Below, one piece after another: positions 2,799 through 59,707 of a stretch of DNA of 64,000 nucleotides; the stretch's first letter is position 1; every line of letters begins with the position of its first letter. The DNA lies in the NCBI GenBank assembly GCA_038049695.1, contig CP142454.1, positions 17,120,501 through 17,184,500 on the forward strand, in the 5' to 3' direction. This DNA comes from Cinnamomum chago (lineage: Eukaryota > Streptophyta > Magnoliopsida > Laurales > Lauraceae). Both the position numbers and the translations under genes were made by a program. Under the pieces are notes generated by a model, which worked only from the letters and a program-made list of their open reading frames with translations, made no database searches and was not told where the DNA came from.

Positions 2799-5700
2799 AT
2801 GGGTTCTCTATGTGATTACTGTGGGGACCAAAGGTCTGTGGTGTATTGCAGATCTGATGCCGCTTCCCTATGTTTGTCCTGTGACCTTAATGTCCATTCT
2901 GCTAATGCGCTCTCTCAACGCCATCAACGGACTCTTTTATGTGACAGATGTTATTCACAGCCAGCCATAGTTAGGTGCGCTGAAGAGAAGATTTCACTTT
3001 GTCAAAACTGTGATGGGAATGGACACGGTGGGTCAACGTCAGCTTCAGGGCATAATAGAAAACCAATCAACTGCTATTCAGGCTGCCCTTCGGCGGCTGA
3101 ACTTTCTAGGATTTGGTCATTTGTTGAGGACTTTCCTTCCACAGCAGAATCAAACTGCAAGCAGGGGTTGGGCTTGATGAGCATCGATGAGAAATGTGAC
3201 AGTAGCTGTTGGGGACTACCAGAAAACAGCAGCACAGTAGATGTAGCTGCCATGAGCAGTACACATGATTTAGAAAGTGTTGATAAATTTGATGTTTGGA
3301 TTGGATCCTCTTCAATGTCTCCACCAAATCATGTGCCAGGCAATGTAGATCAGTCAGCTGGATATGTGGAATCCAGGGTAATCTATAGCTTTGGAATCCT
3401 TATTTATCTATCATCCCTAATCTTCCCATATTTTATGTGGTGATTGATTTTAAGTTATACATTCATATGCTGTTTTACACTGTATGTGGTATGAACTGTT
3501 AGTTTTGGTTTCTATGATCTATTTGAATAAAAAGGGGGAATTTGTCTGATAAGGTAACTGGCAGATGCTTGACCATGAGCCTATGAAAAATTTGGTGTGA
3601 ATTTATGCTCTTTTTATTTTATTTTTAAGTAATGGTAAATTTTATTTAGGAAGAACTCCACCACCACAACAAGAAGGGTATAAAAGACTTGTACACTTCA
3701 TATATCCTGCTGCTACTGCTGTGCCTTTCAAGCCATCAAATCTGAGGCAATATTAGATGAATGTAGATTTTGGGTATTTTATCAGGTGGGTACAGCAAGC
3801 TAGAGTCCTAGAACGGCAGATTGATTATTCATTAGCTATAAAATCAGCCAGCAGCCTAAAGCAGTCCTAAATTAAAATGAGGGACTTTTTGAATGCAACA
3901 GATCTGGTTTGTAACATTGGGTTATGCAGAATATTTGATGTCGTGTTCATTTGGACTCTATCCATTGGCAGATGGTTGAGAAAGTGGTTGGGACATGGGT
4001 CTAATGGTCTAGTTGTTCGAGTCTTAAAATATTTTTATTTGATTTATGTCAAATCACCATACTAGTAGGGGCATGTTAATTCAAATAATGATGTAGAGCA
4101 TCATATATGATAATTATATTTCTAGATGATATCCCTAATGATATTTGTGATTTTTGTTAATTATCTTTAGAGATGTCATTATATCCTTGAGTATGTTAAT
4201 TAGCTTCAGAAGTATCGTTGTGGCTGATTGTAATCAAACAAGATTCTATAAATATAGTAAAAATAGAATGTAGGAGAGATCATTCCCCTTTGCTGATCAT
4301 CTCCTCTGTTCTTACATTTCTTCAATTTCTTCTCATTCACCACCACTATCAACTATCAAGGAAGTTGCTGCAAGCTGCTTCAGTTCATTTGTTACTGGAA
4401 GTTACTTTTCACTTCATTTCAGGACTGGGTCACGCTCCTGTAGCATGACTTAATTCCTAGATTGCCAAGGACGTGTTCATGTTTCCTCTGATGAGAGAGT
4501 CTATAGTGACAGGCGATGCCATATTTGTAAATTTGGATGCAGCAAAACATTAGATTGTCTTGTCATAATGGGCTCTAAGTAATGGGGGTGGAAGCACTTA
4601 TGCGAAACATTGCAATGGTTACATTTAAGATGAAGACGGCTTAGTGAATAAACTTCGATTATTGGTTTTTTTTTCTGAGTATTTCACACTAAGCTATCTG
4701 GTTCTGCTTATTTTCTTCATATATCATTGAAGTTTCTGCTGTCAGATGTTTCATGGATTTGTTATTGACTAACTGATCTGTTATACAGCTGCCAAAAGGA
4801 CTGGGAATCTGTGAAGATGATGACCTCTATGAAGATTTCAGTGTGGCTGATGTCAACTTGAGCTTTGAAGAACTCTTTGGCATGCCACATAATCAGCCAG
4901 TACAGCCTTTTGAGGACACCAGTATTGATAGCTTGTTTGCAGTGAAAAGCATGCCTGATTCAAGTGGCCAGGGTGGCTTTGTGGCAGAGGTTTCTTTTTA
5001 ACAGATTCTTCTATTGCACAATCTTGCTTCTTTTATCCTGTCTTGATGTGCAATGTCTTTTCCTCCAAATTTATTATTTTAATTTTTGTTAGTTTGCTGT
5101 GCTCGTCCAGGAATTCTTATACATAGCTCAGCAAGACCCACATGAAAAGCTACATCCATGGGGACAAATAATGTTCCATTCTTTCTAGGAACATAGCACT
5201 TTTACCTGTTATTCTGGAAATTGAATTGTATAGTGAATCATTCAAGAGGATGAATCAAATCATATTGTGAATCATCACAAATTGTACGAGTTTTTATTTT
5301 TCTTATAAAAAATAAAAATGAAAAATGAAAAAGGTAGTTATTCATAATCCATAGAACCATCGATACAGTGGCAAATAAGATTATTATATAATCATATGAA
5401 GAACATCATTGACATATATTAATGTATCATAATGATGTGTGAGTCGTTAGATATGTTAAAAATGTCAACATCATTAGGAAAAGTTAACTAGTTGGAGTTT
5501 TTTTTTTTTTTTTTTCTTTTTTTCTCTTTATATAACAAATAAAAATAAAATCCAAATCATCAACCTTATATGGTTAGGATGTCGCTTGAAGTTAAAAAAA
5601 GGTGTTCATGAAAAATCAAAAAGAAAAATGTAGGACGAAACTCTTGTCCAGTTGTACGCTCTAGTTACATGCCTGCTCCTTATTTATCTTTAAAACTTCT

Positions 5701-9925: not shown

Positions 9926-9934
9926 AATTAATAA
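9926..9934. repeat. 9-bp target-site duplication, left copy (AATTAATAA)
   Basis: Directly abuts the left end of the Mutator-like element and is identical to 24922-24930 at the right end. Nine bases is the usual Mutator-superfamily duplication length. It fixes both element boundaries to the base. Confidence 0.92.
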
Positions 9935-10541
9935 GAGAGGGGCTCTCCTCCACTGCAGTGGAGGAGAGCCTCAGCTGGAGAGGCGTGGGAAGAATTTGGC
10001 TCGTGTGGAAACTAAAAAGGGATGAAAGTGAATTGAAACAGTGTTGCCGCCCAAACGATTCGAGTGAAATGAAAAGAAGCAGAAGCCCAAAATCGAGGCC
10101 CTTCCTCTCCAGCCGATCTCTCTCTCTGCAATCGCTCTCTCTGTCTCTCTCTCTCGCTCCCACGCGTTCTGCTCACGATCTCTCTCCCTCCCGATCTGCT
10201 GCATCTGCTTCTCTCCTTCTCTCCCTGCAATCGCTCTCTCTCTCTCTCTCGATCGCTCCCATCGACACTGCTGCACACGTCGAGAGCTTCTCTGCTGCTG
10301 CGATCGGTCTGCCGACTCCCCTCGTCTCTGCTGCTGCGATCACTGCTTCCTCCCTCGTCTCTGCTGCTGCGCGATCAGACATCCTCACTCACCTGCTGCT
10401 GCGATCGCTGCTTCCTCCCTCGTCTCCCTGCGTCTCTGCTGCTGCGATCTCTCGCTCCCTCTCTCGTCGAGATCTCTCTCTCTCGCTCTCTCTCTCTCGC
10501 CAGAAGCTCTCCCTCTCATCACTGCACTCCCTCCCGATCTC
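9935..10541 (+). repeat. left terminal inverted repeat of the MULE
   Basis: Matches the reverse complement of 24232-24921. The outer 165 bp are unique-looking and about 98% identical to the other end. The inner part is CT-rich with repeats of a roughly 35-bp unit (CTGCTGCGATCNCTGCTTCC-like). It probably holds the promoter of the transposase gene, as TIRs do in MuDR. The long serine-rich open frames across it come from CT and CTG repeats and are not genes. Confidence 0.9.
9941..9970. repeat. perfect 30-bp palindrome near the left MULE tip
   Basis: GGCTCTCCTCCACTG followed at once by its exact reverse complement, starting 6 bp inside the element end. The same palindrome recurs at 24886-24915. 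It could extrude as a hairpin or bind a symmetric dimer of transposase; that role is inference. Confidence 0.95.
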
Positions 10542-11473
10542 TGCTGCTGCATTTCCTCTCAAAAGTCGTCTCTCCCGCTGGTCCTCTGCCTGGCATCGTC
10601 TCCCCCACCTCCCTGAAGTCATCTCTCTGTTTGGATTTCTCTACAACGGACCAAGCCCCTCCCTCAGCAACTCTTCTACACAAAACAGAGTAAGAAAACA
10701 CTTCTGGCTAAGGACTGTTTCTTTAATTTGTTTTGGATCCGGGAATGTGAGATGGAAATTGGATTCTCTGCCCCAGTAGATTTTTTTTAGTAGAGCAACA
10801 AAAGTGCTCTCTCCCAGTGAAGGGCAACAAAAGTGCTCTCTCCCAGTAGATTTTCTTTTTCATGTTTTTCCAACTTTCAGATCTGCTTCTTTACTTTTAC
10901 TATTGCATTTCCAACCTTGGATGAGCCACTCCCTTTTTGATGTAAGACACCTCTCTGTCATCTTCCTCATGCATTTTTAATTGTTTTGTGATCCTGGCCA
11001 TTGATTTGGTACCCCATTATGGACTGATTTTAATTATTTCATGACCCTGCCCATTGCACTAAAAATTCCAAGTTCAGAAGGCTCAAATTATTTTCAAAAT
11101 CATGGAACCATTTTCAAATCTTAAGAAAATATTCAACTATCCCCTTCCAGATCAGTTTTCATGTAACCCCAATTGAATTCGGCCTTCTCCATGGTTGCCA
11201 CTTTAATGCATATATTTTGAGCTAATGGTCTGGATTGAGAGCTGAAAGCCAGATTGCCCCATTGCACTAATAATTAAAACAGAGCTAACTCATGCCTATT
11301 GCAATATAATTCCCACAGAAAACAAGGTAATTTATTTGGGGTTTTTGTCTTTTGTACATGTTATTTGGGGTTTTTGTCTTTTATTTAGTCATGGTTTTAT
11401 AACTTATGAATTTTGGTTTGTTATTCATGAATATGCTTTAATTATTTGTGATCCAGATTGCATATGGATATGA

Positions 11474-13790
11474 CCTCCTCCTCATCACCAGCTGTCCATT
11501 ACCCGGTTTGTAGATGAAGTCATGACACCAAGATTGAGAATGCATTTCGATGATTTAGACGAGGCATATAACTTTTACAATGCATATGGAAAACTCGCTG
11601 GATTTAGTATAAGAAAAGAATCCAGTAATAGAGGCAAAGTTGGGGAAGTTGTATGGAAGCGATTTGTTTGTTCAAAGGAGGGTAAAACAGATGAGAAACA
11701 CTGGATTGGATTGATAAGGAACTTGTTCAAAGACGTCGAATGAAAACAAGATTCGATTGTAAGGCTAAGATGCAAGTGAAAAAAGATAAGTCAGGTGGTT
11801 ATGTGGTATCCATGTTTGTACCAGAACACTCTCATGCCCCCGCTACTCCTAGCAAGAGATTTATGCTGAGGTCGCATCGTGAAGTGCCAGAATCAAAGCG
11901 GCAACTTATAAACACATATGATTCAGCAAACGTGCGCAACAAACAACAAATGCAAGTGTTTGCATCTCAATCTAGGGGGCTAGACAAAATGGGATTTACA
12001 GATAAGGATGCCAAGAATTACCGTAGGGATGAAAAGGAAAAGAGAAGGGGGCTAGATGGACAGTTGTTATTTCAACTTTTTGAAAACCGCAGAGAAATGG
12101 GAAATGGTTTCACATATACCATTGAGCGAGATGCAGAAAAGAAGATAACGCATGTGTTTTGTGCAAATGGATCATTTCGTACGGCTTACAAAGCGTTTGG
12201 TGATGTGGTGACATTTGATACAACCTACAAGACAAATTGTTACGAACTTATTTTCGCCGCTTTTGTAGGTTGCAATCACCATGGGCAAACTACTTTATTC
12301 GGGTGTGGGTTTCTTCCAAATGAAAAAACGGAGTCTTTTGAGTGGTTGCTTAACACCTGGCTTGAAGCCATGTCCTTTGGTCCACCAAAGGGTGTTATAA
12401 CAGATCAAGATCTGGCAATGACAAAAGCTATAAAGAATGTCATGCCAAATACCGTTCATCGGTATTGCCTATGGCACATTTGGATAAGTTGCCTACGAAT
12501 TTAGGAGGGGTTCATATTCACAATGAGGGTTTAATAGAGCAGATAAAAAAATGTGTTCATAACTCTGATACTACTGATCAATTCGTGAGTTTTTGGAATC
12601 AGATCATAACAGAGAATAAGCTTATGGAGAATAATTGGTTGGCGGATATATTTAATATTCGTCATATGTGGGTTCCGGCATATTTAAAGGAAATTTTTTT
12701 GGCAGCATGTCGACCACTCAAAGAAGTGAAAGCATGAATGCATTTGTGAAGCAGTATGTAGAGTACAAGAATTCCCTCCTTGATTTCATATTGCGTTTTG
12801 ACGCTGGGGTTGAACGTCTAAAATATTTTGAAAAGAAAGAGGATTTTGAGAATAACAATGGGAGGCCTAAAATGAAGACATGTTTACCGATGGAAAAGCA
12901 AATGGCCGAAGTATATACAAGAAAGTTATTTTATAAGTTTCAAGATGAGTTATTCAACACCATGACAGTTGATGAAGTTGTTGTATATGAGGATGATGTC
13001 ACCTGTAAGTTTGTCGTGAAAATTATTCCGATGAGAAGCAAATTGATAGAGAGGTTTTATGGAAAAAAGACGAGAAACATGCATATTGTTCTTACAAGAA
13101 GTTTGAATTTGAAGGCATCCCTTGTTGCCACATTTTGTGTGTCTTGAAGAGATGTTCTATACTATTTTTGCCCGAGCATTACATTTTGAAGCGATGGACG
13201 AAGGGTGTTACAAAAGATGCATTTGTAGATGTTGAATCGGGTGGGTCTGTCCGTGTTAACCAATGCTTGGCTCGACATAGTCAGTTGTCATGTATGTTTG
13301 CAGGGCTTATTGACATAGGCAGTCAATCTAGAGAAGGTTTTGATCTTCTAATCAGTGGTCATAAGGAATTGGAAATGAAATTAAGTCAGTTGACATTAAA
13401 CAATCCATCAAATACAAGTATTGGGAATGGACTTGTCGATAGTAATGTGGTTGAATACCATGAGCAGGCGCATGTTGTAACGAAAGGACGCGCGAAGAGA
13501 CTTAAATCATCGAAGGAAAATGAAACAAAAGGGCGTCTTTGTAAGGGTTGCAACAAGCGCGGTGTATCACATGACAAGCGAAATTGTCCAGTGTTGTTGA
13601 ACAGGTAAACGATTTAATGCTATTTTTTGTTATTATCTCCCATGTTTCATATATAACTATTACTTAAAAAAAAAATTCTTTCAGGTTAGTTGATGATGAT
13701 CTAGGGAAGTCAGTAGAATCTAACTTTGGAAGTAGAGAAAGCTCCGATGATGATACAGGTAAATTAGTTTTTTACCTATATATATTAGTT
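11474..13790 (+). pseudogene. FAR1-type MULE transposase, frame-broken
   Basis: Transposase of the FHY3/FAR1-MuDR group, which cuts and pastes the element. Order of parts: FAR1 DNA-binding domain (11522-11850; EAYNFYNAYG, RFDCKAKM), MULE catalytic core (about 12100-12480, with FDTTY near 12217 and TDQD near 12400), a downstream QRSES/NAF block (12710-12760), a SWIM-type finger (about 13090-13140) and a C-terminal CCHC-like knuckle (CKGCNKRGVSHDKRNC, 13540-13590). An intron GTAAAC...TTTCAG (13605-13684) probably joins a short acidic tail ending in or just after 13760. Frames change near 11.73, 12.48, 12.70 (a 7-T run) and 13.1 kb. In the SWIM motif the second Cys is Tyr (CSYKK). Conserved motifs survive in all pieces, so decay is recent or partly due to sequencing error. 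Confidence 0.88.
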
Positions 13791-14750
13791 ATAATGTCAC
13801 AATGGCACTCTATCTCAGTAAAAGAGAAGGAACCAAATAGTTTTGTGACTATTAAGAGCAAGAACCAATAGCATAGCAGGCCTAGATTCACGAGTCCCTC
13901 TCCTCCTCACATTAAACAATCATATTCTCCTCCCTACATTAAACAATCATATCCTGCACTTTACACTGTCTCAGTATCTTTTCCTTTCTCACCCACAAAT
14001 GTATTCATCCTCCAAGAAATGCTTTAAATAGACCTTTGGTAAACTCCTTGCCATTTTATCATATCATGTTTTACAGGCAGCAAACCCATAATTAAAGAGT
14101 CAGTTTTGAAAACAGGCAGCAAACCCATAATCCTGCTGTATGATATGCTATTTAATTTGAAACCCCTCAACATGGATGGAATTCTTTCATAACCATCTAT
14201 CGCAGACTGCCATATGTATGAATAGTTTGTGAAATGAACCATGATCCACATTAATGTTTTTATTTCCCTCCATAACTTATCACAAGTTGCATGTCTATTG
14301 CAGCTCAATTACTATAATGCAGATATGCAGACTTGTTGCAGAGAATGAAGACATGAAGACTCCATTCATCTTCTTTGTAAGCTTATGAAGACTTTATGCA
14401 GAGAATGAGACATGAAGACTCCATTCATCTTCTTTGTTATGCCAACCTTTTGTTCCTGTACTTTTGATGAAGAAAAACATGGAAAAACAAGAATTTTGTT
14501 TATGTAGTTTATTATGTGTGAGATTGACACGTTGATAAACTGATCAATATTTTGATGAACATTATTGTTTAATGAATGAATGGATTTATTTCTTTCACAT
14601 TGTGCAGAGATGGGTTTAATGAATGAATGGATTTATTTCTTTCACATTGTCTAGAGATGTTTTTATGTGTGCAGTGTAATATTGTGCAGAGATGGGTTTA
14701 TGTGTGCAGTGTAATATTGTGCAGTGTGATGGGTTTATGTGTGCAGTGTA
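13791..14750 (+). other. MULE internal region 3' of the transposase, with short tandem repeats
   Basis: No gene is seen. From about 14565 to 14750 there are tandem copies of two short units: one of about 45 bp (GAATGGATTTATTTCTTTC) repeated twice, and one of about 35 bp (GTGCAGTGTAATATTGTGCA) repeated about three times. A duplicated block CAGAGAATGAAGACATGAAG occurs near 14340 and 14400. Likely the transposase 3' UTR or terminator region. Confidence 0.55.
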
Positions 14751-15500
14751 AACTGATGAAACCTTGATGAGTACCCCTATTCGGGCAACTGGTTGACCCA
14801 CTTCCGGATGTAATTTTTGGATGAAATTTGGGGTATGCGAAGACCATATTCCAGACTTAAAATCTGCTATATTTGGGCAACGGACGAATGCGTTTGATCG
14901 GTTTTCAACTCGCGCACTTTTTCAACTCAGTCGCAGAAAACTGATGAAACCTTGCTGAGTACCCCTGTTCGGGCAACTGGTTGACCCACTTCCGGATGTA
15001 ATTTTTCGATGAAATTTGGGGTATACGAAGACCATATTCCAAACTTAAAAGCTTATATATTTGGGGAAGGAACGATCGCGTTTGATCGGTTTTCAACTCG
15101 CGCACTTTTTCAACTCAGTCGCAGAAAACTGATGAAACCTTGTTGAGTACCCCTGTTCGGGCATCTGGTTGACCCACTTCCGGATGTAATTTTTTGATGA
15201 AATTGGGGTATTCGAAGACCATATTCCGGACATAAAATCTGCTATATTTGGGCAACGGACGAATGCGTTTGATCGGTTTTCAACTCGCGCACTTTTTCAA
15301 CTCAGTCGCAGAAAACTGATGAAACCTTGCTGAGTACCCCTGTTCGGGCCACTGGTTGACCCACTTCCGGATGGAATTTTTGGTTGAAACTTGGGGTATG
15401 CGAAGACCATATTCCGGACTTAAAATCTACTATATTTGGGCAAGGAACGATCGCGTTTGATCGGTTTTCAACTCGCGCACTTTTTCAACTCAGTAAAAAA
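14751..15500 (+). repeat. tandem array A: four copies of a 188-bp unit
   Basis: Copies begin at about 14751, 14939, 15127 and 15314 with AACTGATGAAACCTTG, then carry GTTCGGGCAACTGGTTGACC and CACTTCCGGATG. Spacing is 187-188 bp and copies differ at only a few sites each. The unit is homologous, in opposite orientation, to array B next to it. No coding frame runs through it. Confidence 0.93.
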
Positions 15501-15629
15501 AAACTGATGAAACTCAGTAAAAAAAAACTGATGAAAACTTCTTTTGTCAAGATCAGATCTAGAGTTATAAACACAGTCAAGTAGCTGACTCCATTAACTA
15601 CTACTACTCGTTTCCACATTTGTAAACAC

Positions 15630-16976
15630 AGTGAAGCTCATTTCAAAATTGGGGAACTCGAAGTCCATATAATGAAGTTAAAATCTGCAATTTTTGGTTA
15701 AAAAAAATTCGTGTTTGCCTCTTTCTCCCTACACAGATTCATATCAAATGATAAATTAATGAAAATTGGGGAACTCGAAGTCCATATAATGAAGTTAAAA
15801 TCTGCAATTTTTGGTTAAAAAAAATTCGCGTTTCAAAAGTGCCTGGTTTTTGGCAGATTTGACTGATTGGGTTCCAAAAGTGTGCGACTAGAACGCTAGG
15901 CAAACGCGATTTTTTTTAAACAAAAAAATTCAGATTTTAACTTCATTATATTGACTTCGAGTTCCCCAATTTTCATAAAAAAATTGCCTCCGGAAGTGGG
16001 TCAAACAGTGACCTAAACAGTGCTACTCAGATTGGTTTTTGGCAGATTTGACTGACTGGGTTCCAAAAGTGCGCGATTGGAACGCAAGGCAAACGCGATT
16101 TTTTTTAACGAAAAAATGTAGATTTTAACTTCATTATATTGACTTCGAGTTCCCCAATTTTCATGAAAAAATTGCCTCCGGAAGTGGGTCAAACAGTGAC
16201 CTAAACAGGGCTACTCAGATTGGTTTTTGGCAGATTTGACTGACTGGGTTCCAAAAGTGCGCGATTGGAACGCAAGGCAAACGCGATTTATTTTTAACAA
16301 AAAAATGCAGATTTTAACTTCATTATATTGACTTCGAGTTCCCCAATTTTCATGAAAAGAATTGCCTCCGGAAGTGGGTCAAACAGTGACCTAAACAGGG
16401 CTACTCAGATTGGCTTTTGGCAGATTTGACTGACTGGGTTCCAAAAGTGCGCGATTGGAACGCTAGGCAAACGCGATTTTTTTTAACAAAAAAATGCAGA
16501 TTTTAACTTCATTATATTGACTTCGAGTTCCCCAATTTTCATGAAAAAATTGCCTCCGGAAGTGGGTCAAACAGTGACCTAAACAGGGCTACTCAGATTG
16601 GTTTCTGGCAGATTTGACTGACTGGGTTCCAAAAGTGCGCGATTGGAACGCTAGGCAAACGCGATATTTTTTTAACGAAAAAATGCAGATTTTAACTTCA
16701 TTATATTGACTTCGAGTTCCCCAATTTTAATGAAAAAATTTCCTCCAGAAGTGGGTCAAACAGTGACCTAAACAGGGCTACTCAGATTGTTTTTTGGCAG
16801 ATTTGACTGACTGGGTTCCAAAAGTGCGCGATTGGAACGCTAGGCAAACGCGATTTTTTTTTAATGAAAAATTGTAGATTTCAAGTTCAGTATATAGACT
16901 TTGAAACCCCCAAATATCGTCCAAAAATTCCTTCGGGAAGTGGGCTAACCAGTGCCCCAAACAGGGGTACTCAGCA
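15630..16976 (-). repeat. tandem array B: about six copies of the diverged 188-bp unit, inverted relative to array A
   Basis: The marker GCCTCCGGAAGTGGGTC recurs at about 15986, 16174, 16364, 16552, 16741 and (diverged) 16929, so the period is 188-190 bp. The reverse complement aligns along its whole length with the array A unit (shared GAAGTTAAAATCTGC-like, CGCGCACTTTT and GACCCACTTCCGGA blocks). Two partial units in the array A orientation (15640-15715 and 15759-15830) precede it, so the switch point near 15830-15900 forms a hairpin with a stem of about 70 bp and a loop of about 70. Confidence 0.9.
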
Positions 16977-17405
16977 TCACTAAAACAAAAAAACATGTTC
17001 TTGCCAATCACTTAAAACATCAGCATTCACCATTCTTATTCAACATCAAACCAACCATTCACCTATAACTTCCACATTCAAACTTAACCTGTTTTTGCCC
17101 ATCACTAAAAACATCAACATTTTCCATTCTTACTCAACATCAAACCAACCATTCATTCACCTATAACTTCCACATTCAAACTCAACCTGTTTTTGTCCAT
17201 CATCTATAACATTCAAACATCAACACAAACTATTTCCATTGAATATCAAGGAATATCAACATTATCATTCATATCAACACAAGCATTCAGATTCAGCTAT
17301 CCAACAAAGACAAAAAAACAAAAAACATTGGAGTCTATCATTTCACTTATCAACCAACCCCTTACATAATAGTAGCTTCCAATCTAGAAGAGTAAAGCTT
17401 GGATG
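16977..17405 (-). repeat. duplicated A/C-rich block 3' of the GRF gene
   Basis: A block of about 105 bp occurs twice in tandem (about 16995-17098 and 17099-17205), sharing CATCAAACCAACCATTC, CCTATAACTTCCACATTC and CAACCTGTTTTTG. It lies just past the stop codon of the minus-strand zinc-finger gene and may be its 3' UTR. No coding sequence is supported. Confidence 0.7.
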
Positions 17406-20400
17406 CTACATTCGACACAATAATATCACAAGCAGGACAGCATAAACAATCATAACAACCGTGAAGACTCGACAAATTTGTTCAAGCTTCTCCAATCTTG
17501 TAATAACATTTACCACACGGCTCTCAGCTTCAGGGGGGGCATAGTGCGGAGTACTCTGGCAAGGGTATGGGTGATTGACCGTCGATCTCACATATTCATC
17601 ACACCAACCAATGAAGTTATTGCAAGCCTATTATTTTCTCGCAAAGAATGGCATATATATGTCGTTAGTGACAAGCTCAAGATAACTCACGGATGGAACT
17701 CTGAAATAGCATAAAGCTATGAAATTGTATTATTCTTATTATCTTTCTTTGGAGAACCAGCCTCAATATATAGAGCATTACAAGCCTAAAAACAAGGCTC
17801 TAAGTTAGGAAACTAATCTAATTAGGAAACTAATCTAATTACAACAAGGTAATTACAGAAATATGTACAACTGTGTGATCTTTGACCTAATCAACCACGT
17901 GAGACAGTCATGCTGGACTGGATCTAATAATGGGCCTTGGGCCTATTTAACACCCCCCCTCAAATTGATGCGGGAGAATCAACAAGCATTAATTTGCCAA
18001 CCAAGAATTGATGTCGTGGGCGTGGAAGACCTTTGGTGAGAATATCAGCAATTTGAAGTTCAGTAGAGACATGCGGAAGGCTGATGACATTACGTTTAAA
18101 CTCATCACGTATGAAGTGACAATCAACCTCGATGTGTTTAGTGCGTTCATGAAAAATCGGATTCTCAGTAATCCGAATAGCACTTGTATTATCAGCATAT
18201 AGGGGGGTAGCTCCGTCTGCGGGAAATCCAATATCTGAGAGCAGACCACGGAGCCAAAGAATTTCGGAGCACGCAGCAGACATAGCTCGGTACTCAGCCT
18301 CGGTAGAAGATTTGGAAACTTTGTCATGTTTCTTGCATTTCCAGGAAATCAGACTATCACCCAAAAACATGCACCATCCTGTCGTCGATCTGCGAGTATC
18401 CGGACAACCAGCCCAGTCAGCATCGGAATAGGCTCGGAGAGAGAGAGGATTGTTGGATGGAAAAAACAACCCGCGAGTCGGTGTGCGAATAAGGTACCGA
18501 ATGATGCGGCGAACAGCTGCCAGATGAAGGTGACGAGGAGCAGTCATGAACTGACTCATGAGGTTGACCGCATAGGAGATATCAGGACGAGTGATGGTGA
18601 GGTAGATCAAGCTACCAACCAACTGGCGATATGGGGTCGGATCAGGAAGAAGGTCACCCTCCTCTTTACTGAGTTTGACATTCAATTCGACCGGCGTATC
18701 GACGGGAGGTGAAGCAGTAAGGCCAGCCAAGTCAATGAGGTCAACCGTATATTTGTGCTGATTGAGTACTATACCTTTAGTCGATTGATGAACTTCAAGA
18801 CCAAGGAAATAGTGTAAGGGGCCTAGATCCTTCATTTGAAATGTCTGATGAAGAGAAGCTTGGAGGGCCTGAATCATTTGTGCATTTGGACCAGTAATGA
18901 CAATGTCATCCACGTAGACTAGTAGCACAGTAATCCCGGATGGAGCATGATGTAAGAACATGGAAGGATCATACTGGCTAGGATGAAAATCCAAATGAAG
19001 AAGGGTATCTTGAAATTTCTCAAACCATGCGCGAGGAGCTTGCTTCAGACCATAGAGAGAGCGACGGAGCTTAGCAACCATACCCTTCCCAGAGGAGGAC
19101 CCCGGAGGCAGACGCATATAAACATCTTCTTTGAGATCACCATGAAGAAACGCATTTTTGACATCCATTTGATAGAGAGGCCAGGATTGAGCGGCAGCAA
19201 CAGCAAGGATGATGCGTACGGTGGTCATCTTGGCTACGGGAGCAAAGGTTTCATCGTAATCAATGCCATATTCTTGCCGATTTCCGAGAGCAACAAGGCG
19301 CGCCTTATATCGATCGAGAGTGCCATCTGATTTTAACTTGAGAGAAAAGATCCACTTGCAGCCAATAGGTTTGACACCCACAGGAGAGGGGACAATATCC
19401 CACGTATGATTTTTCTCTAAAGCAGCCAATTCATCTTGTATAGCCTTGTTCCAACATGTATCCTGCACAGCCTGAGAATAGGATTGGGGAATGGAAGAAG
19501 AAGACAAAGAGGCCATTAAGGAAGTATGGGAGAAACCATAGCGGTCGGGTGGTACCGAAATGCGAGTGGAGCGACGTAGAGAAGGTTGTCCAGATGGACC
19601 AAGTGCCGGAGGTAGACTGGATGCCGGGGGAAGATCAGAAGGGGGATCCCTGGGATGCGCTTCTCTGTTCCGTCTGTGATACACAAAATTAGGATTAAAC
19701 CGAACAACTGACGTGTCGTCAGAAAAACCAGGTAAAGACACCAAAGAGGAGGGGTCAGGGGGATCAAGATGTTTTTGAAAAAAATACTGGTGTTAAAAAA
19801 AAACAACATTCCGAGAGGTACGGAAACGACGAATGCGAGGATCATAACAAAGGAACCCTTTCTGGAAGGGTGCATAACCTAAAAACACACACTGAGCTGA
19901 TTGTGCGGTTAGTTTTGTTCGCTCAGAAGGAGGCAAGTGCACAAAGCAAGTGGAGCCAAAAACATGAAGATCATCGTAGGATGGAGAGGTCTTGTACAAT
20001 CGGTAATATGGGCTTTGATTCTCAATGGAGGTTGATGGCATGCGATTGATAAGATGAGCTGCTGTAGCCAATGCCTCAACCCAAAATCGGGTAGGAACCG
20101 ATGATTCAAGAAGAAGGGAACGAGTGACATCAAGGAGATGTCTATTTTTCCTTTCAGCAATTCCATTCTGCTGTGGAGTATAAGGACAAGTTCTTTGAGA
20201 AATAATGCCTTTGTGTTGTAAAAACCGTTGAAAATCTGAGGACACATATTCCCCTCCTGAGTCAGACCGCAAGATTTTAATGCAGGTGGAAAATTGATTC
20301 TCAACATAAGCTAAAAATTTTTTAAAAACATTAAAAACATCAGATTTTGAATGCAGAAAGTAGACCCATGTGAACCGACTGAAATCATCAATAAAAGTCA

Positions 20401-23303
20401 CAAAATATTTATAGTGAGCGTGGGAAAGAGCTGGAGCAATTCCCCATACATCACTATGAACTAAATCAAAAGCCTGAGTGGTGAGTGAAGTGGAATGAGG
20501 AAACGGAAGAGTCTTGCTCTTTCCCAATTTACAAGTAGCACAATCAAAAGGCACACAAGAAGATAAACCAATAGATGTATTTAATAAACCAGAATTTAAC
20601 ATAAGGGACAAAGCCTTGGAATTAGGATGTCCGAGTCGATTATGCCACAATCGGCAATTATCTCGAAGAGAAAAACAAAACACATTATTGTCAAATTGAT
20701 TCCTAGAAATTTTAGAAAAATCCAGCGGAAACAAGCGTCCACACTTAGGCCCCCTCGCGATCTCCTTCCCGGACATCTGGTCCTGCACAACACAACCAGA
20801 AGAAGAAAAAGAGATGTTACATTGATTTTCAACAAGCTGCCCGACTGACAAAAGGTTGGAAGTTAAATTGGGACACAGATAAACATTTTTCAATGGAATG
20901 GGACCAGGGATGTCACCGACAGCAGTAATGGGGATATGGCCCCCGTTAGCAGTTTGTATTTGAAGAGGGCCATTGTAGCTTTGCACATTGGAGAGTGGTG
21001 CATTGGAAAATGTCATATGATTAGACGCCCCGGAATCAAGAAACCAAGTAGAAGATGGAGGGGATATACCTGAGAGACCAAAAGCAGAAAGGGCATTGAC
21101 AATCATCTGTTGAACCAATTCAGGAGTGAGAGAGGATGAGGGCCCAGGCTGTGAGGGTGCAGATGTAGGAGCAGGTAGATCCGAAGAAGCAACATACGCA
21201 AGCGGAGGCTGATATTGTGGAGTTTGAGACTGTGGACGTTGTGGACGGCGGCGACATTCAGAGATGATATGTCCCGACTTCTTACAGTAACTGCAGACCT
21301 TCTGTTTGCATTGAGTTGCAATGTGCCCAAATTTTTGACAACTGTAACACTGTGTTTTGCTCAAGTCTCGAGGCGGAGGCTGAGAAGCCTTATTAGCCGA
21401 GAACGCGACTGAATAGGTTTCCGTCTTTTGTTGGGCTATATGAGCGGAGGTCGCAAGGCGCTGTTCTTCGCGTAGGAGCTCATTCAAGCATACATCTAAG
21501 GAAGGTAATGGCATCCGATTCATCAGAGCAGATCGGACACTTTCATATTCATTGCGCAGTTTCATCAAAAACTGATCCCTGTGACTAGAGGCCTGAAGAT
21601 CTTGAATCACCGTCAACACATTGTCAGCCACATCCGCATACTTAATACTATCGTATTCCGACCACAGTGTAAGGAATCCGGAATAGTAGTCTTGTACCGA
21701 CAAGGTCCCTTGTGCATACTCAGCAATTGCACATTCAAGATGAAATTGACGTGCAGAGTTATCTTGATGATATACTTTCTTCAAATACTCCCACATGGCT
21801 TTAGAGGTCGAGTACGGCTTGAGATTCATTATCAAATGAGGCTCGACAGATCCCAGAATCCAGGATTTGATTTTGGCATCTTTAGTAAGCCAGGCGGATA
21901 TCTTCTTCTCATCTTCCTTGGGTTTTGGGTCAGATCCAGAAATATAACCCCATAATTCCTTAGCCTCAAGGTAAATCTGGAACTGAAACGACCAGGCGGG
22001 ATAATTTTTTCCCGTGAATCGGATCAAGGTAACCTCAGATTTTTTCATCTTCAAACTTGATTGCAAAGAAAATCCAATAACAGTGAAGAGATGAAAGCTA
22101 AATTTGTGATAACAACTGTGCTTGTGTGAAGAAATCAAGATCCGATCAATCAGAGATGATAAAAAATCAAAACAGAACATAAAGGGGCAAAAAAACACCC
22201 CAGACGACCTTGATTTTGGCTGCTGATCTTCTATGTGGGCCCCACGGATAGATCTGGACAATGATCAGAGCCCTGATCTGAAGAAGTCCAGTAATTTGCT
22301 TCCTACTAGAGAAAGAATGATCCAATTCTGCTGAGAATCCAAGAGATTGGACGGTCTTGATGAAAACAGTATTGAAAACTGAAAAATCTCGAGAATGAGA
22401 AAAAATCCAATCTGGAGGTGCTGAAAAATCCTGAAAAAATCGCCAATATTCTTAGGAATACCAGTCGACCAGTGTGGGATGGTTTCTGGAAGTTGATCTG
22501 ATGATCTATGGTGGGCCACGCAAAGGATGGATCTACTGACGTCGCTGGAAGTCGCTGGAAGTCGCTGGAGTTGCTGGAGTTGCTCGGATGATCATAAAAT
22601 CTTGGAAAAATCACCAAAAAGTTGGATAAATCTAGTCGACCAGGATGGAAGGGATTTCCAGAGAGGTTGATGACGATCTGAAGTGGGCCACGTCTTGATC
22701 TGAGATGATCTGTGATGATCTGTGATGATCAAGTATGATCGCTTATTCCCTAGATACTATGCAAGATAAAAACAAGGTTTTCTTGTGCTCTGATACCATG
22801 ACAAGCTCAAGATAACTCACCGATGGAACTCTGAAATAGCATAAAGCTATGAAATTGTATTATTCTTATTATCTTTCTTTGGAGAACCAGCCTCAATATA
22901 TAGAGCATTACAAGCCTAAAAACAAGGCTCTAAGTTAGGAAACTAATCTAATTAGGAAATTAATCTAATTACAACAAGGTAATTACAGAAATATGTACAA
23001 CTGTGTGATCTTTGACCTAATCAACCACGTGAGACAGTCATGCTGGACTGGATCTAATAATGGGCCTTGGGCCTATTTAACAGTTAGTTGGTATATATTT
23101 GTCTATATGCGAAAATAAATAAGAATTGAAAATAAGGAAATTGCCAAAGTTTATTTCGTTCTTACCAATGGTCGTGGACATGAATAATAATGTCTACCAT
23201 AATTATTTGATGACCGCGAAACCTTGACTACACAGTTGCCAACACCACATCGACATAAACGTTCAGGCCAGTTCGAATTTTCAGAAGAGGCATACGAAGT
23301 CAT
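17406..23303 (-). CDS. small GRF-type zinc-finger protein with C-terminal membrane segment, second gene of the MULE
   Basis: Two exons on the minus strand: 23303-23166 (46 codons, ATG at 23303) and 17627-17406 (73 codons plus stop), giving 119 aa. Splice sites are GT (GTAAGA) and AG (AATAG), phase 0. Residues 17-57 fit a GRF-type finger: C17, C19, S29-x-x-S-N-N-Y-G-R37, YYSCP (C42), C48 and W54-C-D-E57. GRF fingers bind nucleic acid in several DNA-repair and plant proteins. A short coiled stretch (RVVNVITRLEKLEQICR) and a hydrophobic C-terminus (VFTVVMIVYAVLLVILLC) suggest a membrane anchor, a pattern seen in many unnamed plant GRF proteins. The frame is intact although the intron holds a copia element (without it the intron would be 119 bp). 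It reads inward from the right TIR, convergent to the transposase. It could be a captured host gene or a resident helper. Confidence 0.75.
17664..17668. repeat. 5-bp target-site duplication of the copia element, left copy (GTTAG)
   Basis: Identical to 23083-23087 beyond the other LTR. Marks an LTR-element insertion within the MULE. Confidence 0.92.
17669..17952 (-). repeat. copia 3' LTR
   Basis: 284 bp, begins TGACAAGCTC and ends TATTTAACA on the plus strand. Near-identical to 22799-23082. It is the 3' LTR because the element reads on the minus strand. Confidence 0.95.
17953..17966 (-). other. copia polypurine tract
   Basis: Plus-strand CCCCCCCTCAAATT, which reads on the minus strand as a purine run of AATTTGAGGGGGGG next to the 3' LTR. 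This is the usual primer for plus-strand DNA in LTR elements. Confidence 0.85.
22787..22798 (-). other. copia primer-binding site (initiator tRNA-Met)
   Basis: Plus-strand GCTCTGATACCA, i.e. TGGTATCAGAGC on the minus strand, directly next to the 5' LTR. This is the classic plant copia site. Confidence 0.93.
22799..23082 (-). repeat. copia 5' LTR
   Basis: 284 bp, TG...CA, matching 17669-17952 at all but about 2 positions. Followed by the second GTTAG target duplication copy (23083-23087). Confidence 0.95.
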
Positions 23304-24231
23304 TTACTTCAAGATCTTCACAAACAAAAGAAAGGATTGGCAGATGGAGACTTTAGAACACATATAATCAGAAATATATTGACTTAACAAGCAAAAATAT
23401 GATAATTTCATTGAATCAAAGGAGATCTAAAGAAAAAATTAGACCAACCGTATTCGTACGACATTTTTTTTTCATTTCCAACAACATAAGTAAACATGAT
23501 AATGTGGAAAAGAAAAGAAATTGTCAGGTTGTATCCAACATGAGATCAATCAACGAAAGGGTAAAAAAATCAGAGCATCCATGTGTTTGACATATAACAC
23601 TCATAAAGAAAAACTACTAGTCCTGAAGGAAAGTTGATGACCCAATTTCTGTATTCTTGCTTTGTGTTGTAAACCACATTTTCAGATAGAGAGAGAGTAC
23701 ATGGTAATAGAAAGGAAAGAAAAATGCCATGAATCCATATAGGATTTGGTAGTTAGATGACTTTTATGGAGTAGATGTCAGAGAAAAAGCTACAACTATT
23801 GACAAATCCAACAGGTGGAGAAATGGTGAAATGAGGTCCTGGCAAAAGAACCTCATACTAGTCCTGAAGAGTCCTCATACTAGAAATGATCAAAATGGTG
23901 AGTTAGAGTATTATGCTGATCAAAATGGTGAGATCTTGGGCTCTGGTGATCAAAATGGTGAGTTGGAGGGCTCGGCAGGAAAATTGCCGAAAACTCAACC
24001 TCCTATATAAAAGAATAAGAATCCATTGAATCAAATAAAAGATAAGGTATTGTGCTCTTTTTCACTCTTCCAAAATGGAGAACCTGATCGAGGGTTTTTT
24101 TATTTTTAGCCCTTTCATTTCAACCATATTTGAGTCACAGGAATTTTAATAACATGCATATCATGTAAGATATTAAAAGGAGATCAGACCTGAGATGAAA
24201 GACCTGAGTTCAGACCTGAGATGAAAGACCT
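23304..24231 (-). other. region between GRF gene start and right TIR
   Basis: Likely leader/promoter side of the minus-strand GRF gene. It holds three copies of GATCAAAATGGTGAG (about 23889-23960) and, next to the TIR, tandem copies of GACCTGAGATGAAA (about 24185-24232). No other gene is supported. Confidence 0.5.
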
Positions 24232-24654
24232 GAGATCGGGAGGGAGTGCAGTGATGAGAGGGAGAGCTTCTGGCGAGAGAGAGATCTTGAGGACAGAGGG
24301 AGCGAGAAATCGCAGCAGCAGAGACGCAGGGAGTGAGTGATGATGTCTGATCGCAGCAGCAGAGACGAGTGAGGAAGCAGCGATCGCAGCAGCAGAGACG
24401 AGGGAGGAAGCAGCGATCGCAGCAGCAGGTGAGTGAGGATGTCTGATCGCGCAGCAGCAGAGACGAGGGAGGAAGCAGTGATCGCAGCAGCAGAGACGAG
24501 AGAGTCAGCAGACCGATCGCAGCAGCAGAGAAGCTCTCGACGTGTGCAGCAGTGTCGATGGGAGCGATCGAGAGAGAGAGAGCGATTGCAGGGAGAGAAG
24601 GAGAGAAGCAGACGCAGCAGATCGGGAGGGAGAGAGATCGTGAGCAGAACGCAT

Positions 24655-24692
<38 letters not shown>

Positions 24693-24921
24693 TTGCAGAG
24701 AGAGAGATTGGCTGGAGAGGAATGGCGCAGAGAGAGAGATCGGCTGGAGAGGAAGGGCCTCGATTTTGGGCTTCTGCTTTTTTTCATTTCACTCGAATCA
24801 TTTGGGCGGCAACACTGTTTCAATTCACTTTCATCCCTTTTTAGTTTCCACAAGAGCCAAATTCTTCCCACGCCTCTCCAGCTGAGGCTCTCCTCCACTG
24901 CAGTGGAGGAGAGCCCCTCTC
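24232..24921 (-). repeat. right terminal inverted repeat of the MULE
   Basis: Inverted match to 9935-10541. It is about 80 bp longer owing to small internal duplications in the GA-rich part (a repeated GAGAGGAATGGCGCAGAGAG-type block near 24715 and extra copies of the GCAGCAGAGACGAGGGAGG unit near 24360-24480). Probably carries the promoter for the GRF gene. Confidence 0.9.
24886..24915. repeat. perfect 30-bp palindrome near the right MULE tip
   Basis: Same 15+15 bp palindrome as at 9941-9970, at the same distance from the element end. Confidence 0.95.
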
Positions 24922-24930
24922 AATTAATAA
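24922..24930. repeat. 9-bp target-site duplication, right copy (AATTAATAA)
   Basis: Identical to 9926-9934 and directly next to the right TIR. Confidence 0.92.
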
Positions 24931-57356: not shown

Positions 57357-59707
57357 GATTTTGTAACGCCCCAATTCCGGATACCGATAAAGTCGTTCGA
57401 ATATCTGAAGTTGGCGCTACTTCCCGGAAAATCCGAGAACTTCCAAGATCGTAGGCCCGCAGTGAGGTCCAATTTAAAACTTTTTGAACCATATGGTAAC
57501 AACAGTTAAATTGCGGAAGCATAACAAGTAAAGCGGAAGCAATTTGATATCGATATATATATCAAGTAAGAGCGAAACATTAGTCTAGTTTAAAAGTGTC
57601 AATTGTTAAACAAAAGTTGATTACATAATTGATAACCACCCGACTCACTTACAAAATTCTCTCAAAAACCTAAAGCAAAGTAAACTCTCAAAACCCTGGT
57701 AAAAGCTCTCCACCCTCCGGCTCGACATAGAGGTCGGCCGGGCCCCACGCGAACTCTCCAACTACGGGCGCTTCTACGAGCGCAAGCGCTTCCTCTGCGA
57801 TCTCTGGGTCAAGGCCTAAGCACCAAAGATGGGTCAGATCTAAAAGATATGGCAAGTCACAGTATACAGATAACATAGGACATATATATCAAAAGAGTAG
57901 AGACAGGTATATAATTTAAAGAATAACAAGGTAAATGAACTACGCAGTTGAGCAAGATAAGCATAAAGAATCATGATAAATAAACAACATCTAATCTACT
58001 ACAAAATGGCACATTCACACGAGCTGGAATACCTCGGGATATTATGCCGCGGCCCTCCCATATTGAACACAGTTGCGGCGGGGAATCTCACGAGTGCTGA
58101 GAATTACTAATCCCGCAAAATCACTCATCAATCTCATCACACTCATCACTCAAAGACCGGACCCGGTATCACACCGTCCGTCTTAACAACATAGCTCATC
58201 ATGATAGCTCCTCAACACTCATAATAGCTCCTACCGGGGATGATCAGTCCACAGACTGAGCTTAAATCAACCGAGTGAATGTCTATGCCGACTCAAGAAT
58301 AACTCTAAGGGTTTGTGTCTTTATAGGCTTTGCCTTGCGTGAACAAGGTCCTAATCAAGTCTGTAAGAGGTTCAACTATCAATCAGTCCGTGGATTACAA
58401 TCCACGTCCAAGTCCACTCGTTTGATCCATACTAAGGCCCATCAACGCATGGCCTGGTCTAAATCAGTCCAAACGAGGCAACATACCCATTTCTACTGAT
58501 AAACATCTCATTCTCAATATAAACTACATCTCCAATCTAAGGGTACATATATCTATACTTAGGCCCAATAAGGGTCCGCCTAGCCACAGACACGGGTCAG
58601 TGTTCTCCAAATCATACTATTGGATCACCTCTAGATATCCTAGGTTCAGGTCATTCATTTCCATTAATTAACAGTTAACAGCTACACTAAAGATCTAAGA
58701 ATGACAGTAATAAACAAGGTGAAGTGTGAACTTCAATATGAGAATCAATAGGGAAATACAACAGTCCAATCCTAGGTAATGGACCACATTCAGGTTCAGG
58801 TCAATCTCCGGTAATTAGATCCCTAATTGGAGTCTCAGATGCCAAAGGATACTGTGTTTGGTGCTCCTGAGGTTACATGCATCATTGACAACGTTTAAGG
58901 CTCTAATCATCTTAGATTAAACGACCAAAACCCTAATCGGTGGTCCCCACGAGTCAAGGTTGAGCCACACCGTTGACTCGGGCTTAATACATTGATAAAT
59001 GTCCATTTGGATGGTCAATGAGCCCCACAAATGATCACAACTCCTAAATGTTGAAAACTGAAAAATCAGGGTTTCCCAATGTGCTTGGTCGACCTGGCAC
59101 AAGCTGGGTCGACCCTGCACACTGGGGGTTGACCCCCAGGTTGACCCAGTGTGCTCGGTCGACCTCCTGGCCTAGTGGGTCGACCGAGTGCACTGGAAAA
59201 AACTGGTTCAAGCCTCCTGGAAGACTTAATTTGTTTTCAAAGGTTCTCAATGTGCCCGGTCAACCTCTTGGCCTAGGTGGTTGACCGCATACACCAAAAA
59301 CCTTGGAAAGAGTGATGTCCCAGCTTCCACCCATTTTTCACTTCATTTCCTGTGTTTCAGGAGGAAATCAACTTTCAGTATGCATTCCCTGAGTTTCAGG
59401 AAAAAAACCAACTTTCAGTCATTTCCTGCAAAAATAGTGTACCTGGGTCGACCTGGCACACTGGAACTTAGCTCTGCAGGAAAAATTAACTGAGAGCAGG
59501 TTTTTCCCAAAATTCAGTGTACCCCGTCGACCTCAACGTCGAGCCGGAGGGTGGAGAGCTTTTACCAGGGTTTTGAGAGTTTACTTTGTTTTGGGTTTTT
59601 GAGAGAATTTTGTAAGTGAGTCGGGTGGTTATCAATTATGTAATCAACTTTTTTTTAACAATTGACACTTTTAAACTAGACTAATGTTCCACGGGCGTTA
59701 CAGATTT
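57357..59707 (+). mobile_element. LTR-type unit with inverted end, 2341 bp, with 5-bp target duplication
   Basis: The unit spans 57362-59702 (TGTAACGCCCC...GGGCGTTACA) between copies of GATTT (57357-57361 and 59703-59707). TGTAACGCCCC is a common start of plant Ty3/gypsy-like LTRs. A block of about 165 bp near the left end (57577-57742) returns inverted at the right end (59521-59688), so both ends read as LTR starts. No polymerase domains are inside. GTCGAC recurs six times in 59087-59530. Probably a solo or rearranged LTR; fossil. Confidence 0.75.

Follow-up and report, generated by a model that had tools for sequence, protein, structure and literature searches.

Does a small zinc-finger gene that lies opposite the transposase gene of a plant transposon belong to that transposon, or is it host sequence that was carried along by chance? 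The question is raised by positions 9935-24921 of a 64,000-nt stretch of Cinnamomum chago DNA (assembly GCA_038049695.1, contig CP142454.1, forward-strand positions 17,120,501 to 17,184,500), which as a whole we call the window, and in which a transposase gene reads in from the left and a gene for a GRF-type zinc ribbon (PF06839) from the right. We put at about 80% the probability that this element belongs, in degenerate form, to a high-copy family of FAR1-type Mutator-like elements (MULEs), the complete form of which combines a FAR1-MULE-SWIM transposase with a convergent small accessory gene that is conserved, co-mobilised and exchangeable. Comparison of copies gives good support, in this genome, to the view that the GRF gene truly belongs to the element as its second gene, and makes it likely to be a working helper rather than a chance passenger.

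A Mutator-like element with two convergent genes

The region 9935-24921 is a MULE, which confirms a first-pass annotation made from the letters of the window. It has a PF10551 domain, long terminal inverted repeats (TIRs) and a target site duplication (TSD) of 9 bp, the norm for MULEs being 8-11 bp and mostly 9. The duplication, AATTAATAA, is perfect and directly adjoins the element termini GAGAGGGG...CCCCTCTC. That annotation had described a perfect 9-bp duplication, TIRs of 0.6-0.7 kb, a FAR1-type transposase gene from the left, a GRF zinc-finger gene from the right and repeat arrays between their 3' ends, and all of these were borne out. The features, with the evidence for each in brackets, are as follows.

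9926-9934, no strand: left TSD, AATTAATAA (sequence)
9935-10541, plus strand: left TIR, 607 nt (blastn of both ends)
9941-9970, no strand: 30-bp perfect palindrome near the left terminus, element positions 7-36 (sequence)
11464-13608, plus strand: FAR1-MULE-SWIM transposase gene, frame broken (start placed from relatives; domain profiles)
14750-15513, plus strand (transposase-gene sense): 188-bp array, 4.1 units (repeat analysis)
15844-16974, minus strand (GRF-gene sense): 189-bp array, 6.0 units (repeat analysis)
17406-17627, minus strand: GRF exon 2, with the remaining ribbon, a linker, a C-terminal hydrophobic stretch and the stop (gene model, PF06839)
17628-23165, minus strand: GRF intron, 119 bp once the nested element and its duplicated target are removed (comparison with relatives)
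17669-23082, minus strand: nested Copia long terminal repeat (LTR) retrotransposon, not part of the MULE (LTRs at 17669-17952 and 22799-23082)
23166-23303, minus strand: GRF exon 1, with the start codon and the first part of the GRF zinc ribbon (gene model, PF06839)
24232-24921, minus strand: right TIR, 690 nt, with a 30-bp palindrome near its outer end (blastn of both ends)
24922-24930, no strand: right TSD, AATTAATAA (sequence)

Using domain profiles we found FAR1 (PF03101) above cut-off in both frame pieces of the window transposase and the MULE domain PF10551 above cut-off with an E-value of 4.2e-30, while SWIM reached 17.8 bits in this broken gene, below the cut-off of 19.6, and 28.1 bits, above it, in a sister family that we call B. 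The MuDR DNA-binding domain PF03108 gave no match up to E 0.1 in the window transposase pieces. Judged by its N-terminal FAR1 domain, the window element is a FAR1-type, putatively Jittery-like, MULE. Compared with the open frame of family B the window gene has five frameshifting indels, its longest open stretch being 269 aa, and by eye an additional short 3' exon is possible. None of ten aligned transposases of the window's own type (type A) is free of both stops and frameshifts.

The GRF gene of the window is split by an intron into which the 5.4-kb Copia element has inserted, flanked by its own duplication GTTAG (17664-17668 and 23083-23087). The Copia LTRs are 99.3% identical across 284 nt, and one stop codon splits its coding frame. 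An intron of 119 bp is also found in nine of 16 relatives measured (range 105-121). The spliced product, GRF1, has an open frame of 119 aa and matches PF06839 with an E-value of 2.5e-9. In type-A copies the accessory gene is enclosed by the TIRs.

Pairing of transposase and GRF genes across the genome

The search space was one genome of 1.06 Gb in 14 contigs and, because only best-scoring candidates were scored, all copy counts are lower bounds. Profiles alone gave 3015 MULE and 531 GRF candidates in total, and pairing the best-scoring part of these (150 MULE and 127 GRF places, at 20 kb or less) yielded 37 convergent, three tandem and no divergent arrangements. With places from DNA queries added (206 MULE, 191 GRF) there were 95 pairs, of which 90 were convergent, two divergent and three tandem, while 500 trials with shifted GRF positions gave a mean of 0.43 convergent pairs and a maximum of 4. 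Since part of the DNA queries had been drawn from copies with a known partner, there is less bias in the count from profiles alone.

Among the best-scored places a GRF partner was present in 26 of 40 for type A and in 34 of 40 for family B. The 26 type-A partners comprised GRF1 (14), a second type, GRF2 (11), and a GRF gene detected by profile only (1), and in family B the partner was GRF1 in four cases. A count made with window GRF DNA had left L016 and lower-ranked transposase places as GRF-less, but this was wrong for 12 places, which carry a GRF gene that the window DNA does not match (GRF2 DNA recovered 11 of these, and the profile alone the twelfth). We read six of the 14 unpaired type-A hits, in five loci (L023, L029 twice, L030, L039 and L040); all six lacked the 3' part of the transposase, and the sequence read around them yielded no GRF gene. 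Within that same reading of six of 14 unpaired hits, no copy with the window's TIRs and a full transposase but without a GRF gene was found.

A third group, family D, has a MuDR-type transposase (PF03108, PF10551 and SWIM; copy L035, read in pieces). The corresponding convergent position in L035 is taken by GRF3, a GRF gene that has no intron, and inverted repeats of this copy lie at 347-544 and 5403-5598. Scored completely (18/18 and 19/19 candidates), family D had a GRF partner at 16 of 19 places, including all 16 long matches; the three unpaired places were one partial match and two short fragments, and GRF3 occurred without a family-D transposase at two of 18 places. The GRF accessory gene is therefore not special to FAR1-type elements, since it is also in MuDR-type MULEs.

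The family-B representative L031 has an open 754-aa FAR1-MULE-SWIM frame, with FAR1 above cut-off, that is 85% identical to type A across 645 aa, together with a convergent GRF2 gene (28% amino acid identity to GRF1) and facing 189-bp arrays. This transposase had no matches among viral contigs. Eight family-B places (G000) matched a 795-bp query at 100%, all with a GRF partner that itself matched at 100%, and seven of the eight have the 754-aa open frame. These places are listed below.

C9:66113437, C8:24011957, C7:63066167, C5:32203242
C4:81202334, C4:1186057, C11:35449087, C12:621252

The open frames among these places suggest very recent family-B activity, and the identical partners are most simply read as the result of very recent joint copying of the two genes. 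A more distant FAR1-type group, family C (L032-L034 and L036-L038), has a transposase with 34% amino acid identity to type A. Its copies L036 and L037 have open transposase frames of 785 and 779 aa and share 99.5% identity across 8,965 nt, which marks them as recently copied.

Relatives of the window copy were gathered with DNA queries, for which the best 40 of 353 transposase candidates (94-100% identity), the best 40 of 68 candidates for GRF exon 1 and the best 40 of 202 for the TIR end were scored. From the best transposase and TIR matches we took 17 copies, a non-random set, to which the window adds an eighteenth. Both GRF1 exons are present in 14 of the 18 (window included); L028 has exon 2 only, L016 has a different GRF gene, in L022 GRF1 lies just beyond the fetched piece, and L023 has a cut-off transposase and no GRF gene. 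L017, L018, L021 and L028 have kept GRF sequence and wholly or mostly lost the transposase. As a separate observation, L029 is a palindrome in which two transposase halves face each other, with no GRF gene found, and G000:C11:9862864+ / 9866934- appears by its coordinates only to be a second palindromic derivative.

Apparent exchange, selection and noncoding parts of the element

With type-A partners split between GRF1 and GRF2, one and the same position is held by different GRF genes in elements that are otherwise alike. This is seen directly in L016, which has the type-A transposase and TIRs but GRF2, and in which the block 915-2449, from TIR to array, cannot be aligned to type-A copy L010. 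Conversely, L033 has a family-C transposase and unrelated TIRs, yet around its GRF gene it shares with L010 a 1,344-nt block at 96.7% identity, and its GRF exons match those of the window at 97-98%. We set aside the idea that elements swapped clean halves at the central arrays, as L033 instead has a 1.3-kb block around the GRF gene. Outside that shared block the arrays of L033 and L010 are only about 64-71% alike, which agrees better with exchange of a cassette, whether through gene conversion or through template switching. GRF cassettes thus appear to have been exchanged between families.

We assessed selection on GRF1 across 17 copies that retain both exons, 14 of them type A and three type C; L028, which has no exon 1, was dropped. 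Splice sites were GT..AG in all 17 and there was no internal stop in 14, one of which lacks a start codon. The pooled pN/pS of these 14 open copies was 0.50 (bootstrap over codons 0.28-0.93), while single pairs gave 1.18 for the window against L010, on ten changes, and 0.30-0.48 for the other five pairs listed. For GRF2, comparison of L016 with L031 gave a dN of 0.197 and a dS of 0.488. The transposase had a pN/pS of 0.52 within ten type-A copies and a dN/dS of 0.15-0.18 between types A and B. Equal ratios for the GRF gene and the transposase among copies with broken transposases point to a shared history and do not prove strong constraint. With convergent GRF genes in many copies of several families, open frames in 14 of 17 copies and a pN/pS of 0.50, the first-pass view that the gene extends beyond this one copy was upheld.

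The two arrays of the window are mutually inverted, their 188- and 189-bp units having about 71-77% identity across 107-179 nt. Both arrays are present in 13 of 15 type-A loci and face each other in all 13, as they do in L031, each in the sense of the adjoining gene and with unit numbers that differ among copies. In family C (L032-L034 and L036) there is an array on the second-gene side only, whether a GRF gene is present or absent, and in the family-D copy L035 the 188-bp array was not found. A partnership with the GRF gene was rejected as the sole reason for the arrays, because L036 and L037 of family C keep arrays without a GRF gene; the layout of the arrays would better fit a role in gene 3' ends than one as target of the GRF protein.

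Left and right TIRs of the window are identical at 583 of 695 columns aligned by blastn, 93 of which are gap columns, and in the outer 180 nt they have three differences. The 30-bp perfect palindrome is present at both element ends and is exact in 22 of 28 ends from 16 copies, with a mean majority agreement of 96%, compared with 83-85% for neighbouring 30-bp TIR blocks, and it may serve as a dimer site for the transposase or form a hairpin. Of 16 copies tested, 12 allowed both ends to be placed. A perfect duplication of 8-10 bp flanks seven of these 12, window included, and was not found at the placed ends of the other five. TA-rich duplications flank six of the 12 (L012+L013, L018, L019+L020, L021, L027 and L028), five of them being TATATATATA, with the caveat that chance matches are easy in TA runs. 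The type-A family may therefore prefer TA microsatellites, a preference described for MuTAnT in Medicago (PMC4486113). The remainder of the window holds no further copy of the element by blastn; it has an inverted repeat of 167 nt and 95.8% identity at 57576-57742 and 59522-59688.

The GRF protein and its possible role

GRF proteins of these elements are small, about 98-136 aa overall (GRF1 119 aa, GRF2 135 and 136 aa, GRF3 98 aa), and GRF1 and GRF3 score 37.5 and 32.9 bits against PF06839, both above the curated cut-off of 25.9. Four proteins of the three GRF types have a common ribbon pattern, with the GRF domain N-terminal and a hydrophobic end C-terminal, where the hydropathy maximum of all four lies (19-residue means 1.8-2.8). 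A C-terminal membrane tail is predicted from these sequences, and a low-confidence AlphaFold2 model of GRF3 has the ribbon strands and one long C-terminal helix. This would be, to our knowledge, the first DNA transposon reported to encode a protein that is probably tail-anchored in a membrane. Searched against the PDB, a GRF profile built from five sequences matched the GRF chains of NEIL3 (7omk and 7jl5; E 4.2e-5 and 9e-5), and up to E 1 there were no other PDB matches. The GRF finger of NEIL3 binds single-stranded DNA. There it is borne by a glycosylase, whereas here the ribbon stands alone and is followed by the hydrophobic C-terminus.

In MuDR of maize both genes read inward from long TIRs and repeats lie between them. 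The window element resembles it in having an oppositely transcribed transposase and second gene, mudrA and the poorly understood mudrB in MuDR (PMC6446971, PMC9168764, PMC4486113), the function of mudrB being called not well defined (PMC4486113). However, the window transposase is FAR1-type and its second gene encodes a GRF ribbon with a hydrophobic tail. The first-pass annotation had inferred that this element arrived at the plan of MuDR with an unrelated second gene. We have set independent arrival aside: family D, which is MuDR-type, has a GRF gene in the same place and cassettes were apparently exchanged, so that common descent or exchange accounts for the layout no less well. Abermu elements of the MuDR clade are also similar, in that type II has an opposite open reading frame (ORFR) between transposase and 3' TIR (PMC9168764). 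ORFR is described as fast evolving, with Ka/Ks of 0.39-0.56, different among species and of unknown function; no domain is named for it and the word GRF is absent from the main text of that paper (PMC9168764). As family D is itself MuDR-type and has a GRF gene, a link between it and ORFR is possible. Jittery-type MULEs (group 36 of PMC6446971) have an N-terminal FAR1 domain, as do our elements, and a C-terminal SWIM or CCHC domain, SWIM being above cut-off here in family B. They are tabulated with one ORF and TIRs of 39-292 bp, compared with two genes and TIRs of 607-690 nt in the window element. A limited search, with subscription journals and Repbase outside its scope, found no literature on a GRF protein in a MULE; two papers name GRF-type fingers in surveys of domains.

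Several observations weigh against the GRF gene as a conserved, co-mobilised helper. Family C has a listed GRF partner at only three of its 40 best-scored places, the position of the GRF gene in L036 and L037 is taken by part of a host VTT-domain gene (L036 1168-1705, by Pfam, and L037 2007-2544, by identity), and no GRF gene was seen in L038. Family-C copies without a GRF gene mean that it is not needed in cis everywhere, and the gene may be dispensable; the few GRF partners of this family could also reflect GRF supplied from other elements, or GRF types that were missed. Among the matches listed, 101 of 191 GRF places have no convergent transposase, which the scoring of best candidates alone may or may not explain, and the merged pairing count carries a query-selection bias. 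The unpaired places read were six of 14 for type A, three of 37 for family C and none of six for family B. Family-B TIRs were not found in the single stretch read (L031), so the claim that the genes form one unit in that family comes from the identical pairs. The bootstrap interval of GRF1 is wide and extends nearly to 1, and the transposase gives the same ratio in ten copies that all have broken frames. The GRF3 structure model is weak, with a mean pLDDT of 62, the authors on Abermu consider that ORFR may be unimportant because recently active rice copies lack it (PMC9168764), and the evidence as a whole is the sequence of one genome. The pairing check put forward in the first-pass annotation gave a GRF partner at most scored places of types A, B and D and at few of family C, and of its suggestion that the protein is a functional helper the part that stands is a real second gene that is not the cargo of one copy, the helper role remaining an inference.

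That MULEs take up host genes, as the VTT-domain piece in family C illustrates for this very position, raises the alternative that the GRF gene is captured cargo in the style of Pack-MULEs, hitch-hiking inside the TIRs and without function for the element. GRF domains are also numerous, with 531 candidates, and many have no listed transposase. Captured cargo would not be expected, however, in FAR1-type A, B and C as well as MuDR-type D, nearly always in one orientation and in every long family-D match, nor does it readily account for the open frames and intact splice sites, for pN/pS and dN/dS below 1, or for the replacement in type A of one GRF gene by another, and we consider it improbable. 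A gene retained to serve the host or to restrain the element, for instance a domesticated regulator or a transposition repressor that spreads inside elements, would fit L017, L018 and L021, which keep an open GRF frame without all or most of the transposase; such copies are expected of a trans-acting repressor, and equally of simple deletion derivatives. With both genes near-identical at the 100% family-B places, seven of eight having the 754-aa frame, and with so few divergent or tandem arrangements among the 95 pairs, this seems to us very improbable.

A third alternative is an anti-silencing role directed by sequence. VANDAL elements are MULE-type, and their VANC proteins are another kind of accessory protein. 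In particular VANDAL copies, VANC attaches to noncoding tandem repeats, which diverge fast, and it removes silent marks (PMC10398659). Ours too are plant elements in which an accessory gene occurs together with rapidly changing noncoding repeats in tandem, but what they carry is a GRF ribbon with a hydrophobic tail. A GRF protein that acted in this way on the long tandem arrays would fit the presence of an accessory gene in MULEs with such arrays, and also the turnover of GRF types while the transposase stays alike. Set against this are the arrays that persist in the GRF-less family-C copies L036 and L037, the family-D copy L035 in which no 188-bp array was found, and a C-terminal membrane helix, which is unexpected in a chromatin factor, and we regard such a factor as unlikely.

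On the preferred reading, a co-mobilised helper gene, both genes would move as one unit and cassettes would be exchanged through gene conversion or template switching. The GRF protein would be anchored in a membrane, of the endoplasmic reticulum (ER) or the nuclear envelope, by its C-terminal tail and would present a nucleic-acid-binding zinc ribbon, aiding the spread of the element in trans, either as a tether for transposase or for DNA of the element or through action against host silencing. The facing arrays would provide separate 3' ends and so stop convergent transcripts from colliding.

A second gene with a recognisable domain, recent and almost identical copies in family B, several types that can be exchanged and naturally occurring deletion derivatives makes the question of its role testable. 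We offer one wider idea tentatively, as possible though short of probable: FAR1- and MuDR-type MULEs may share a hitherto undescribed accessory gene for a tail-anchored membrane protein with a DNA-binding GRF ribbon that, located in the nuclear envelope or the ER, helps elements to spread or to evade silencing, with cassettes swapped as weapons in an arms race, and many GRF-type 'uncharacterized proteins' of plants may be transposon genes. If this were true, numerous small plant GRF proteins would be recast as transposon-borne.

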